Source: Ruminococcus sp. UBA6407
GTDB lineage: Bacteria > Bacillota > Clostridia > Oscillospirales > Ruminococcaceae
Direction of reading: 5' to 3'
Length of the DNA stretch: 5,692 bases
Assembly (NCBI GenBank): GCA_002438605.1
Contig: DJPR01000032.1
Coordinates: 19,629 to 25,320 of the forward strand
Shown: piece after piece, positions 3,032 to 5,692 of the stretch
Numbering within the stretch: position 1 is the stretch's first letter
How the letters are laid out: each line of letters begins with the position of its first letter
Position numbers and translations under genes: made by a program
The notes under the pieces: model-generated
What the model was told of the DNA's origin: nothing
The model's database searches: none
What the model saw: the letters and a program-made list of their open reading frames with translations, nothing else

Positions 3032-3108
3032 GTTTCCGTAGCTCAGCTGGATAGAGCGACCGCCTCCTAAGCGGTAGGTCGGGTGTTCGAATCACCTCGG
3101 GAACGCCA
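3032..3108 (+). tRNA. tRNA-Arg (anticodon CCU)
   Basis: A full cloverleaf of 77 nt with encoded CCA. The acceptor stem GTTTCCG pairs with CGGGAAC (one G-U). The D arm contains AGCTCAGCTGGATAGAGC with an A at the position typical of arginine tRNAs. The anticodon stem ACCGC/GCGGT holds the loop CTCCTAA, with anticodon CCT at 3066-3068, which reads AGG. The T arm contains GGTGTTCGAATCACC. The discriminator is G3105, followed by CCA at 3106-3108. The gene stands alone between oadB and sequences of mobile-element type; tRNA 3' ends are common integrase targets. Confidence 0.96.
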
Positions 3109-3478: not shown

Positions 3479-3658
3479 TTGAAAGAACAGAAATATCATT
3501 TATATCTTTGCGATGATGAATACAGACAGACTATTCAGTCCCTTGTTCGCTTGAAGAACAACCTAATTGCACAAGGTAGATACACCGATGGAGTTGACGA
3601 TGTTCTTTGCAAAGTGCTTTCTGCCAAGATAAGAAAGCTCAAAATCAAATATATATAA
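3479..3658 (+). CDS. Small conserved mobile-element protein, function unknown
   Basis: A 59-residue, basic, probably cytosolic protein starting at TTG with AGGAGG 8 nt upstream. It reads MKEQKYHLYLCDDEYRQTIQ at the N-terminus, then SLVRLKNNLIAQGRY, and ends in a Lys/Arg-rich tail (SAKIRKLKIKYI). No signal peptide or membrane segment is seen. The pattern (short strand, acidic turn, two amphipathic helices) could suit a small DNA-binding or regulatory protein, but no domain is certain. From memory, similar short proteins recur next to ParA cassettes in clostridial conjugative elements; a search would have to confirm this. It is followed by about 90 nt without a good gene and then a strong terminator, so it appears monocistronic. 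The same frame is open upstream to 3242, but that part runs through the repeat array and is not judged coding. Confidence 0.75.
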   Translation: MKEQKYHLYLCDDEYRQTIQSLVRLKNNLIAQGRYTDGVDDVLCKVLSAKIRKLKIKYI

Positions 3659-3750: not shown

Positions 3751-3796
3751 AGCCGTCTATTGACCTCTAATTTGAGGAGAATAGGCGGCTTTTTTT
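3751..3796 (+). terminator. Strong terminator between the 59-aa gene and the parA leader
   Basis: AGCCGTCTATT (3751-3761) pairs with AATAGGCGGCT (3780-3790), 11 bp with one G-U. The stem continues past a 2x2 mismatch into CCTC/GAGG with loop TAATTT, and at least six Ts follow (3791-3796). It insulates parAB from upstream transcription unless it is overridden. Confidence 0.92.
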
Positions 3797-3910
3797 GCGT
3801 TCAAAAAAATATTTAAGAAATTTTGAAAAAACACCCCCCAAAAACGCTCTCCCATTTCAAACAAGTGAAGGGGTTAATTCCGAACCAAGAAAACGGAAGC
3901 CTTTCACTTG

Positions 3911-3928
3911 TACTTTGAAAACTGAATA
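3911..3928 (+). promoter_or_regulatory. boxA-like antitermination motif
   Basis: TACTTTGAAAACTGAATA follows hairpin P0 directly. It resembles the CTTTGAAAACT motif (boxA region) in rRNA leaders and 16S-23S spacers of Firmicutes, where Nus factors bind nascent RNA. No rRNA gene is present in the window. The resemblance is from memory of the motif, and function here is inferred. Confidence 0.4.
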
Positions 3929-4118
3929 CACAGGTCACTAAGACTTTATTTCTGATGAATTTAGCCACCTTATCGGGTACGCCTTGACTTCTGCCTTGCA
4001 GGACAGCGAGAACTCCCGGTATAAGTAACAGGTTGCCCCTGTTACGGCGATGACAGTCAGAATGATAATGATACTTCTCTACGGAGCTGGCGGAGAACCC
4101 GGCAGAGGTGAAATTCCT

Positions 4119-4160
4119 ATGATACAGATGAGCTGTCTGTTCCTTAGTGACTTCCCGTGA
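4119..4160 (+). CDS. Possible 13-aa leader peptide inside the parA leader
   Basis: ATG at 4119 has GAGGTG (4105-4110) 8 nt upstream and encodes MIQMSCLFLSDFP before TGA at 4158-4160. The frame is open farther upstream to an ATG at 4050 (36 codons), but that start lacks an RBS. The codons overlap the 3' arm of the long-range helix (4143-4153), so a translating ribosome would have to open it. No run of a single amino acid is present, so classical amino-acid attenuation is not indicated. It may also be a chance frame within structured RNA. Confidence 0.3.
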   Translation: MIQMSCLFLSDFP

Positions 4161-4199
4161 GCGTTTGCTCGGCAAGGGGTGTTGAGAACAAATATTGCC

Positions 4200-4253
4200 T
4201 GACCGGTTAGGAAATGAGCCGGTCAAGTACATAGCCATACTGCGATGGCTATG
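4200..4253. promoter_or_regulatory. Two strong palindromes just before the parA RBS
   Basis: TGACCGGTT/AGCCGGTCA (9 bp with one G-U, 8-nt loop) is followed after 4 nt by CATAGCCAT/ATGGCTATG (9 bp perfect, 6-nt loop). Neither is followed by a T tract, so they are not terminators, and the parA Shine-Dalgarno (4263-4270) stays free. They could be the end of the leader RNA, or DNA operator/centromere sites for ParA/ParB autoregulation. No match to the chromosomal parS TGTTTCACGTGAAACA is seen. Confidence 0.5.
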
Positions 4254-4262
4254 AATACTACG

Positions 4263-4270
4263 AAAGGAGG
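4263..4270 (+). promoter_or_regulatory. RBS that decides the parA start
   Basis: AAAGGAGG abuts the ATG at 4271 with no spacing, too close for initiation. The in-frame GTG at 4280 lies 9 nt after GGAGG, an ideal distance. The GTG is therefore taken as the parA start. Confidence 0.8.
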
Positions 4271-4279
4271 ATGCACAAA

Positions 4280-5104
4280 GTGTCGAACTGCAAAACGATT
4301 GCTATATGCAATCAAAAAGGCGGAGTTGGAAAGACAACCACTACGGTAAATCTCGGAGTCGGTCTTGCTATGCAGGGAAAGAAAGTATTGCTCATTGACG
4401 CAGACCCGCAGGGCGATTTAACGACCTGTCTCGGTTGGCGGGATACGGACAGCTTGGGTATCACGCTTGCAACGAAACTCACAGATGTAATAAATGAGAC
4501 GATGAATGACCCTATGGTCGGTGTTCTGCACCACGAGGAAGGTGTAGACCTTGTTCCTGCAAACCTTGAGCTTTCTGCAATGGAGTTTAACCTTGTTAAT
4601 GCAATGAGCAGAGAAACAGCATTGAGAAATTACCTCAGCGAAGTGAAGGACAAATACGATTATGTACTTATTGATTGTATGCCTTCCCTCGGTATGGTAA
4701 CAATCAATGCCTTATCTGCGGCAGACAGCGTCATTATTCCTGTTCAGGCTCAATATCTACCGGCAAAAGGAATGACGCAGCTTGTTCAGACTATTTCAAG
4801 AGTTAAGAAGCGTATCAATCCGAACTTGAAGATTGACGGTATGCTTCTCACTTTGGTGGATAGCCGTACCAACCTCGCTAAAAGCACGGTAGAAGCTCTG
4901 AGAGAAAACTTCGGTAATCAAATCAAGATGTATCGCACATATATACCGATTGCCGTTAAAGCCGCAGAGACTTCTTCTAAAGGCAAGAGCATTTTTGCCT
5001 ACGAACCCAACAGTACGGTGTCAAAGGCGTACACCGAATTTACGAAGGAGGTGTTAGCCGATGGCAGGAAGAAAGAGCGACTTCACTCTCACGAAGCTCG
5101 ATGA
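4280..5104 (+). CDS. parA: ParA/Soj family partition ATPase
   Basis: A Walker-type ATPase that with ParB segregates or maintains plasmids, chromosomes and circular forms of integrative elements. From the GTG start it has 274 residues, slightly longer than Soj. The deviant Walker A is KGGVGKTT (13-20, signature Lys13 and catalytic Lys18), DADPQ (40-44) is the A' motif, and the Walker B region is YDYVLIDCMPSLG (126-138, Asp132). There is no N-terminal helix-turn-helix, so it is of the short Soj/type Ib kind rather than the P1 type. The C-terminal part GKSIFAYEPNSTVSKAY (235-251) follows the usual Soj layout. Its last 44 nt overlap parB, implying translational coupling. The long structured leader before it suggests RNA-level control. 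Together with the upstream 59-aa gene and nearby tRNA, this fits a clostridial conjugative element. Confidence 0.95.
   Translation: MSNCKTIAICNQKGGVGKTTTTVNLGVGLAMQGKKVLLIDADPQGDLTTCLGWRDTDSLGITLATKLTDVINETMNDPMVGVLHHEEGVDLVPANLELSAMEFNLVNAMSRETALRNYLSEVKDKYDYVLIDCMPSLGMVTINALSAADSVIIPVQAQYLPAKGMTQLVQTISRVKKRINPNLKIDGMLLTLVDSRTNLAKSTVEALRENFGNQIKMYRTYIPIAVKAAETSSKGKSIFAYEPNSTVSKAYTEFTKEVLADGRKKERLHSHEAR
5045..5051 (+). promoter_or_regulatory. RBS of parB inside parA
   Basis: AAGGAGG lies within the parA coding sequence, 9 nt before the parB ATG at 5061. It gives parB independent initiation despite the overlapping reading frames. Confidence 0.85.
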
Positions 5105-5692
5105 TTTATTTTCTACGCAGGAGCAGAGAGATGAAGAAAAGCTTTCAAAAATCCGAGATATTCCATTAACAGAGATTGACGATTTCCCCGACCACCCTTT
5201 TAAGGTGCGTGATGATGAGGATATGGCACAGCTCGTTGAGAGTATCAAGGAACGAGGGATTATCACCCCAGCTACGGTAAGGCAGAAAGAGGACGGCAGA
5301 TATGAACTCATTTCAGGTCACAGACGAAAAAGAGCCTGCGAACTTGCCGGTTTTAATACGCTCCGCTGTGAGGTCGTTGAGCTGAACCGAGACGAAGCAA
5401 CAATCCTTATGGTTGAAAGTAACTACCAACGCTCACAGATACTCCCCTCTGAAAAAGCCTTTGCCTATAAAATGCGTTTGGACGCTATGAACAGACAAGG
5501 ACAACGAACAGATTTAACTTCGACACCAGTGGTGTCAAAGTTGAGGACAAACGAAACTCTTGGAAATGAGGTTGGAGAAAGCCGTGAGCAAATTCGAAGA
5601 TATATTCGCCTTACAAGTCTTGTTCCCGAACTGTTGGACTGTGTTGATGAGGGGCGAATTAAAATGCGACCGGCAGTTGAATTGTCTTATCT
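5061..5692 (+). CDS. parB: ParB/Noc family partition protein (3' end beyond window)
   Basis: The DNA-binding partner of ParA; ParB proteins load at parS-type sites as CTP-dependent clamps. The first 210 codons are visible and the frame is open at the window end. Residues 31-75 (IPLTEIDDFPDHPF onward, then SIKERGIITPATVR) form the start of the ParB N-terminal domain. ISGHRRKRACELAG (84-97) is the conserved arginine-rich nucleotide-binding patch, with His where GERR is commonest. VESNYQRSQILPSEKAFAYK (118-137) matches the ENxQR-type box. ESREQIRRYIRL (173-184) with the following residues fits the helix-turn-helix region. A polar segment at about 144-170 (NRQGQRTDLTSTPVVSKLRT) looks like an insertion before the HTH. 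The start overlaps parA by 44 nt. The dimerisation domain cannot be assessed. Confidence 0.93.
   Translation, partial: MAGRKSDFTLTKLDDLFSTQEQRDEEKLSKIRDIPLTEIDDFPDHPFKVRDDEDMAQLVESIKERGIITPATVRQKEDGRYELISGHRRKRACELAGFNTLRCEVVELNRDEATILMVESNYQRSQILPSEKAFAYKMRLDAMNRQGQRTDLTSTPVVSKLRTNETLGNEVGESREQIRRYIRLTSLVPELLDCVDEGRIKMRPAVELSY

Follow-up and report, generated by a model that had tools for sequence, protein, structure and literature searches.

The question raised by this locus is what occupies the ~400 nt separating a terminator-like hairpin from parA, in which no convincing gene was found. The window, by which we mean the whole 5,692-nucleotide stretch of Ruminococcus sp. UBA6407 analyzed here, starts in chromosomal genes, which are followed by a tRNA-Arg (CCT) gene (3032-3108, + strand, by ARAGORN; Rfam tRNA match at 3032-3105) and then by a region that closes with parA and parB. 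The tRNA gene is likely the attachment site beside an element, and the parA region is probably part of a mobile element. On the + strand, parA was annotated at 4271-5104 as an ORF from ATG 4271; the alternative GTG at 4280 is more likely the true start, because AAAGGAGG (4263-4270) directly abuts the ATG and relatives carry their ATG at the position of 4280. The parB gene (5061-5690, + strand; ORF and domain search) runs past the contig end.

A 59-aa ORF with a TTG start (3479-3658) lies between tRNA-Arg and the leader, and had no match in Pfam or NCBIfam. Upstream of the leader is an intrinsic-terminator-like hairpin (3754-3787, + strand; -15.7 kcal/mol) with the T-tail GCTTTTTT, and of 12 relatives inspected at this position all but L055 showed the GGCGGC-T-tract end of such a hairpin. 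No convincing or canonical promoter was found between upstream terminator and leader, either in the window or in the relatives. We considered whether CTTGACAACTGAATA, which is conserved, could belong to a sigma-70 promoter and rejected this by eye, as the spacer part is itself conserved and no -10 element lies behind it. Between 3790 and 3862 there are an AT-rich stretch and a GGGTGTC-like motif, seen also in several relatives, and an element-encoded sigma factor may have its promoter there.

A conserved RNA fold upstream of parA

To sample relatives, the ParA protein was used to scan one genome per species, yielding 80 loci, 65 of which matched the leader stretch by blastn over at least 50 bases. 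Seven of the remaining 15 had little or no upstream sequence and eight had other upstream sequence (L049, L058, L089, L090, L091, L094, L095 and L096); where alignments were confined to the core (L043, L050, L056, L059, L081 and L085), identity was ~88-97%. We extracted 72 parA leaders and removed those at least 93% identical, leaving 43 plus the window, then left out 12 by eye as N-masked, partial or unalignable (L063, L065, L067, L075 and the same eight loci with other upstream sequence) and dropped L092 for its Ns, giving a final alignment of 31 sequences including the window. From these 31 leaders a covariance model of 135 positions (R1) was built, with no canT sequence in it. Three of the loci without the RNA (L094, L095 and L096) showed a terminator-like hairpin ~110-150 nt before parA followed by TACATAGCC, an arrangement that suggests an RNA module inserted at some loci or lost from others.

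A preliminary description of this DNA had proposed a structured leader of about 400 nt with an 11-bp long-range helix, and both were borne out. The + strand of 3862-4260 had a folding energy of -135.1 kcal/mol; 100 shuffles averaged -108.5 (z -4.78), and none of them folded as well. The 11-bp helix (3932-3942 with 4143-4153) is present in the sequence, including one G-U pair, and the minimum-energy fold pairs its inner 9 bp, here termed P1 (5' strand at 3934-3942, 3' strand at 4143-4151). Reading along the + strand, the fold begins with a 5' hairpin (3862-3910) and continues through P1 into an upper domain (3950-4062) made up of P2 (3950-56/4056-62), P3, P4 (3971-77/4015-21), P6 and the P7 hairpin (4025-4045), with P5 as a further predicted helix of this domain. 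A core with hairpins P8, P9 and P10 (4065-4122) follows, then the P11 hairpin (4123-4141), the 3' strand of P1, the P12 helix containing the conserved GGGGTGTTGAGAACAAATA (4171-4199), and a hairpin shortly before the ribosome-binding site (4230-4253).

Covariation, the check suggested for this fold, supported most of it. The 68 predicted pairs gave 5202 covarying comparisons, against a mean of 774 and a maximum of 1301 in 200 simulations of a tree null. P1, P2, P4, P7, P8, P11 and P12 lay above all 200 simulations; P6 (reached by 2/200) and P9b (4/200) were borderline; P3, P9a and P10 varied little among the leaders; and P5 was unsupported, with 149 of the 200 simulations reaching the observed value. 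For the tree-null and pairwise tests a script right-justified the P1 5'-strand columns in all 31 rows, which favours P1, and one additional gap was shifted in L050; in the unedited full alignment RNAalifold recovered 45 pairs, 24 of them with compensated changes, and P1 was absent. The case for P1 therefore rests on permutation tests of leaders and pemK RNAs. Without any alignment, the two strands paired over 8.5 bp within a sequence versus 6.1 bp between sequences in the 31 non-redundant leaders (19 different strands; one mis-anchored row, L053, scored as 6), and over 9.6 versus 6.1 bp in 37 pemK RNAs chosen through Rfam, values reached by none of 10,000 permutations in either set. P1 of at least 7 bp was found in 34/37 motif-bearing pemK RNAs, compared to 27.7% of mismatched combinations.

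A stricter pair-by-pair test returned just three pairs with E < 0.05, all among those predicted. In a core alignment with P7 and P11 (A2, 144 columns), 19 of 24 pairs varied on both sides (0/500 shuffles) and 97.2% of cells could pair, falling to 37-45% when the partner was slid by 1-3 columns. The hairpin before the ribosome-binding site was supported (0/5000 permutations reached it), the 5' hairpin formed in many leaders and in a weak test was reached by 7/5000 permutations, and a further hairpin at 4200-4225 was absent from many relatives. Covariation thus shows a conserved RNA structure in 3862-4260.

Strand-biased pairing also bears on whether the region acts as DNA, as an oriT, single-strand origin or partition centromere, an option that the preliminary description had kept. 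Such a locus might be expected from its place adjoining parAB at the element end and from inverted repeats that could function in single-stranded DNA, and the - strand does fold too (z -3.00). The + strand nevertheless folds better, and in it G-U pairs outnumber A-C mismatches (172 versus 99 cells). At the 5' end an rRNA-type motif shares the orientation of the fold, related RNAs precede many genes besides parA, and canT, the counterpart in Tn916, is orientation-specific in a transcription reporter that contains no other Tn916 genes (PMC11658703). With pairing, motif and orientation dependence all fitting it poorly, we regard a DNA locus as highly improbable.

The pemK RNA family and its relationship to canT

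The preliminary description had called the leader undescribed, a label we dropped when comparison against all Rfam families placed RF02913, "pemK RNA", at 4065-4122 (72.4 bits, E 3.7e-12) over the whole model (1-61) and above the gathering cut-off of 34.8. What stood of that description was a large structured cis-acting RNA before a mobile-element parAB; its core is a known family, and a relative, canT, has been published. The core opens with AUAAUGAUAC, seven of whose ten positions never vary among the 31 leaders. The leader is a member of the pemK/canT family and shares the 61-nt core of RF02913; the Rfam model ends there, whereas the conserved RNA of the window measures ~290-340 nt and adds P1, the upper domain and a boxA-like motif.

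RF02913 was found in 9/60 relatives, 139/394 genomes of the order and 26/398 of the phylum (counts that include the window's own genome, several genomes being multi-copy), in 0/14 control genomes in each of three surveys, and was absent from 8 of the 9 doubtful parA relatives. Downstream of 42 pemK RNAs were genes of a serine-recombinase cluster (15 loci), a PemK cluster (11 loci; presumably the origin of the family's name) and a ParA cluster (9 loci), clusters that overlap at some loci and of which one or two representatives each were Pfam-confirmed; BRO and integrase genes were also found behind these RNAs. The window's own genome carries a second copy (G000:C16:14092-14164, locus L012), with a boxA-like motif 239 nt upstream at one mismatch and, downstream, a PemK-cluster gene and a gene for a BRO/KilAC-type phage antirepressor; this locus is probably a prophage or phage-like element.

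Rfam types the pemK RNA as Cis-reg, and a leader of riboswitch-like or attenuation type, responding to a signal and acting on parA alone, would suit the highly conserved core, the conserved hairpin right before the ribosome-binding site and a loose scan that flagged the 5' hairpin (3865-3907, tail TTGTACTT, -13.0 kcal/mol) as a terminator. A stricter terminator scan found none within the leader, however, and the genes that follow these RNAs (ParA, PemK, serine recombinase, BRO and integrase) are unrelated, so that a general transcription function fits better than one ligand-gene pair. Since canT also functions with foreign terminators and promoters (PMC11658703), we think control of parA by such a sensor quite unlikely.

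The published canT of Tn916 is a cis-acting processive antiterminator located 126-577 bp after orf8, which acts in one orientation, on heterologous promoters and terminators, and needs no other Tn916 genes; its description offers single-sequence fold predictions only, and its main text mentions none of pemK, Rfam, boxA or NusB (PMC11658703). We examined the copy in pCF10 (locus L182), in which a helix-turn-helix gene, orf8 by synteny, ends at 828 and an excisionase gene lies at 1289-1492. By synteny the canT interval transfers to 954-1405, which we take to be canT; the names orf5 and orf8 and the designation Tn916-type are likewise assumed, in part from synteny. The locus carries RF02913 (1111-1211, 55 bits), the exact boxA-like 15-mer (953-967) and a P1 of 12 bp, and R1 matched all of its 135 positions there (1063-1235, 39.3 bits, E 8e-8). 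The leader is accordingly homologous in sequence and structure to canT, as represented by the pCF10 copy and not by the type sequence. Another candidate for Tn916, the best PF09035 match (L166), was rejected because its sequence is a different element.

RF02913 occurred in 6 of the 19 excisionase loci scanned. In two vanB elements, which we take to be of Tn1549 type, on Enterococcus plasmids, the RNA lies at the canT position, in the gap between helix-turn-helix gene and excisionase (L164:2821-2918 and L165:2821-2918), as it does in L182; in L172, L173, L174 and L180 it lies 89-150 nt upstream of xis. R1 scored 43.6 bits on a vanB element. The copies in L164 and L165 come without a recognisable boxA-like motif, none being present at up to 5 mismatches in the gap searched. 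Partial or sub-threshold matches to RF03532 (Rfam SQ2397, a cis-regulator of a helix-turn-helix gene) were seen in the right ends of L172, L173, L164 and L165.

Published mutations also bear on the relationship. The inactivating canT(S3) mutation hits a tyrosine codon of orf5 (AUA to UGC) and drops a 452-bp canT fragment to < 5% activity, whereas a 400-bp fragment is active and the effect of S3 in it is small (PMC11658703). In L182 the corresponding frame, of 83 aa, holds two tyrosines only, both encoded by AUA and both inside AUAAUGAUAC, so at either possible position S3 falls in the highly conserved core. Judged by sequence and structure, pemK RNA and canT form one family, a link that is new as far as our literature search shows. 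The two differ in setting: canT sits between orf8 and xis-int and reaches the transfer genes only once the element is circularised (PMC11658703), whereas the RNA of the window directly precedes parA, behind an upstream terminator, and activity is known for canT alone.

A boxA-like motif at the 5' end

Directly 3' of the first hairpin is the 15-base motif TTTGAAAACTGAATA (3914-3928, + strand). A degenerate pattern of it, YTTGAMAAYTGMATA, had 34 matches in 12 genomes that had been selected for their parA loci, against one for a reversed control pattern. Eleven matches were in parA leaders, including that of the window, eight in other Rfam-confirmed pemK RNAs, eight shortly before 23S rRNA (in two genomes) and seven in other places (L110, L112, L114, L117, L119, L122 and L123). 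We found no 23S match in the window's own assembly; the rRNA operons examined are those of relatives. Among 12 rRNA loci, examined on the 23S side only, one was masked (L108) and two fragments were left out (L101 and L105), and the motif was present in all nine readable stretches, from four genomes (six exact, three with one mismatch), 104-358 nt upstream of 23S rRNA.

We then looked for the motif in the 60-320 nt range upstream of 42 pemK RNAs, on the strand of the RNA (the best-scoring with enough upstream sequence, not de-duplicated and including some parA leaders; L005 had too little upstream sequence and was excluded). It was exact in 18, present in 32 at up to one mismatch and in 37 at up to two, compared to 0, 0 and 0 of 42 in downstream controls and 0, 0 and 1 in reverse-complement controls; five lacked it even at two mismatches. 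With 32/42 against 0/42 in both controls at one mismatch, the motif is part of the pemK RNA family, and it matches the ribosomal signal in sequence as well as in its placement after a hairpin. We call it boxA-like, since what identifies it as boxA is its position ahead of 23S rRNA together with its likeness to the boxA consensus as we take it to be. Core, long-range P1 and 5' boxA-like motif are common to the leader and the RNA at the canT position.

The boxA element is a binding site of NusB/NusE (PMC6614801, PMC4807359, PMC5725501), and by analogy with rRNA operons the motif may load NusB/S10, the least certain part of our reading. The boxB-boxA-boxC of rRNA operons and the lambda nut site likewise have a linear boxA-type motif behind a hairpin (PMC6614801), whereas in the window a large conserved fold comes after the motif and NusB/S10 binding is a prediction. 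Such recruitment finds no clear support in the published canT fragments: placed on L182, the 452-bp fragment begins one base inside the boxA-like 15-mer, and shorter fragments are active as well, so that boxA may be dispensable for antitermination.

The rRNA machinery might nonetheless account for the locus alone, with the motif recruiting NusB/S10 and the folded RNA serving as a scaffold or processing signal. Consistent with this, the motif precedes 23S rRNA in every readable operon, L117, L119, L122 and L123 carry it before ORFs without a pemK match, and intrinsic antitermination by the E. coli rRNA complex has been mentioned (PMC6614801). The E. coli Nus complex, however, acts against Rho and in rRNA folding (PMC5725501), whereas canT overrides intrinsic terminators (PMC11658703); S3, which abolishes nearly all activity of the 452-bp fragment, is ~150 nt from boxA; and five of the 42 pemK RNAs lack the motif at two mismatches. 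We therefore consider it unlikely that the rRNA machinery alone does the work here.

At L117 and L119 (motif near 1440 in both), L123 (near 1512) and L122 (near 1516), the motif without a pemK RNA match precedes small ORFs, and at L123, in the window's own genome, the ORF resembles a serine recombinase by eye. Other elements possibly use boxA alone.

A predicted antitermination leader of the parAB operon

At 28 loci, including L049, which lacks the RNA, we searched the 3 kb beyond the parA match for hairpins with a T-tract. A sense hairpin lay 1750-2173 nt after the match in 16 loci and at 1052-1154 in five, with neither in seven. In the 16 relatives it precedes the fourth gene of the parAB operon as an intrinsic-terminator-like hairpin, and in 15 of these it starts 16-28 nt beyond the stop codon of the ORF before it. 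In 15/16, counted by eye, a ribosome-binding site of GGA type lies no more than 45 nt further on, so that a promoter would hardly fit in between. Hairpin sequences vary among relatives and the arrangement is kept; at 7/21 loci the hairpin was overlapped by a mechanically listed ORF that uses an earlier alternative start. Terminator-like hairpins overall were not enriched in the sense direction (25 sense versus 20 antisense across the 28 loci, and 21 versus 19 by hand count in one operon), so the case for the hairpin before gene 4 rests on its position. Four of the eight doubtful parA relatives without RF02913 (L049, L090, L091 and L096) also had terminator-like hairpins downstream, and a test among parA relatives found no coupling between the RNA and downstream terminators; the two are not strictly coupled. 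In Ruminococcus sp. FMBCY1, co-directional ORFs run on for tens of kilobases.

Several leader RNAs are known to make polymerase resistant to terminators, among them EAR, the HK022 put RNAs and LoaP leaders (PMC11658703, PMC12691694). Comparison with these was through the Rfam hits of the window, which included no other antitermination family. The conAn2 RNA of pLS20 is similar in being a large terminator-overriding RNA that starts a conjugation operon and differs in requiring the ConAn1 protein for processivity (PMC8955417). R1 had no match in bases 1-40000 of the 65,774 of pLS20 (L131), no boxA-like motif was found near its operon start at up to two mismatches, and conAn was rejected as the family of the leader for want of homology in both searches.

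We hold with good confidence that the leader is a canT-type antitermination RNA of the pemK/canT family before parAB. By analogy with canT, whose activity we expect it to have, it likely works in cis, modifying the very RNA polymerase by which it is transcribed, and this polymerase would then read through intrinsic terminators of the downstream parAB operon, so that the long operon of the element would be switched on as a single unit. The hairpin before gene 4 would be its main target, and the upstream terminator (3754-3787) would insulate it from host transcription.

Two features are new as far as our searches show: the 15-base boxA-like motif at the 5' end of pemK RNA, which also precedes 23S rRNA, and the hairpin resembling an intrinsic terminator that precedes gene 4 of the parAB operon in 16/28 relatives. 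No report linking pemK RNA, canT and boxA was found in the literature within reach, which excluded most subscription papers. What surprises here is the boxA of rRNA type, for which a function is predicted.

More tentatively, and as a reading nearly as apt to hold as to fail, we propose that pemK RNA, canT and the Tn1549-type leader are one antitermination family that copies the host's rRNA boxA, in which elements of Bacillota borrow NusB/S10 and add a polymerase-binding fold. If true, the elements would obtain a transcript that is proof against terminators and that could not be mimicked by spontaneous transcription from the host. The analysis gives a likely function to the widespread Rfam family RF02913, supplies for canT a structure tested across relatives, and would tie the control of conjugation genes, including those of Tn916- and vanB-type elements, to an rRNA antitermination signal.
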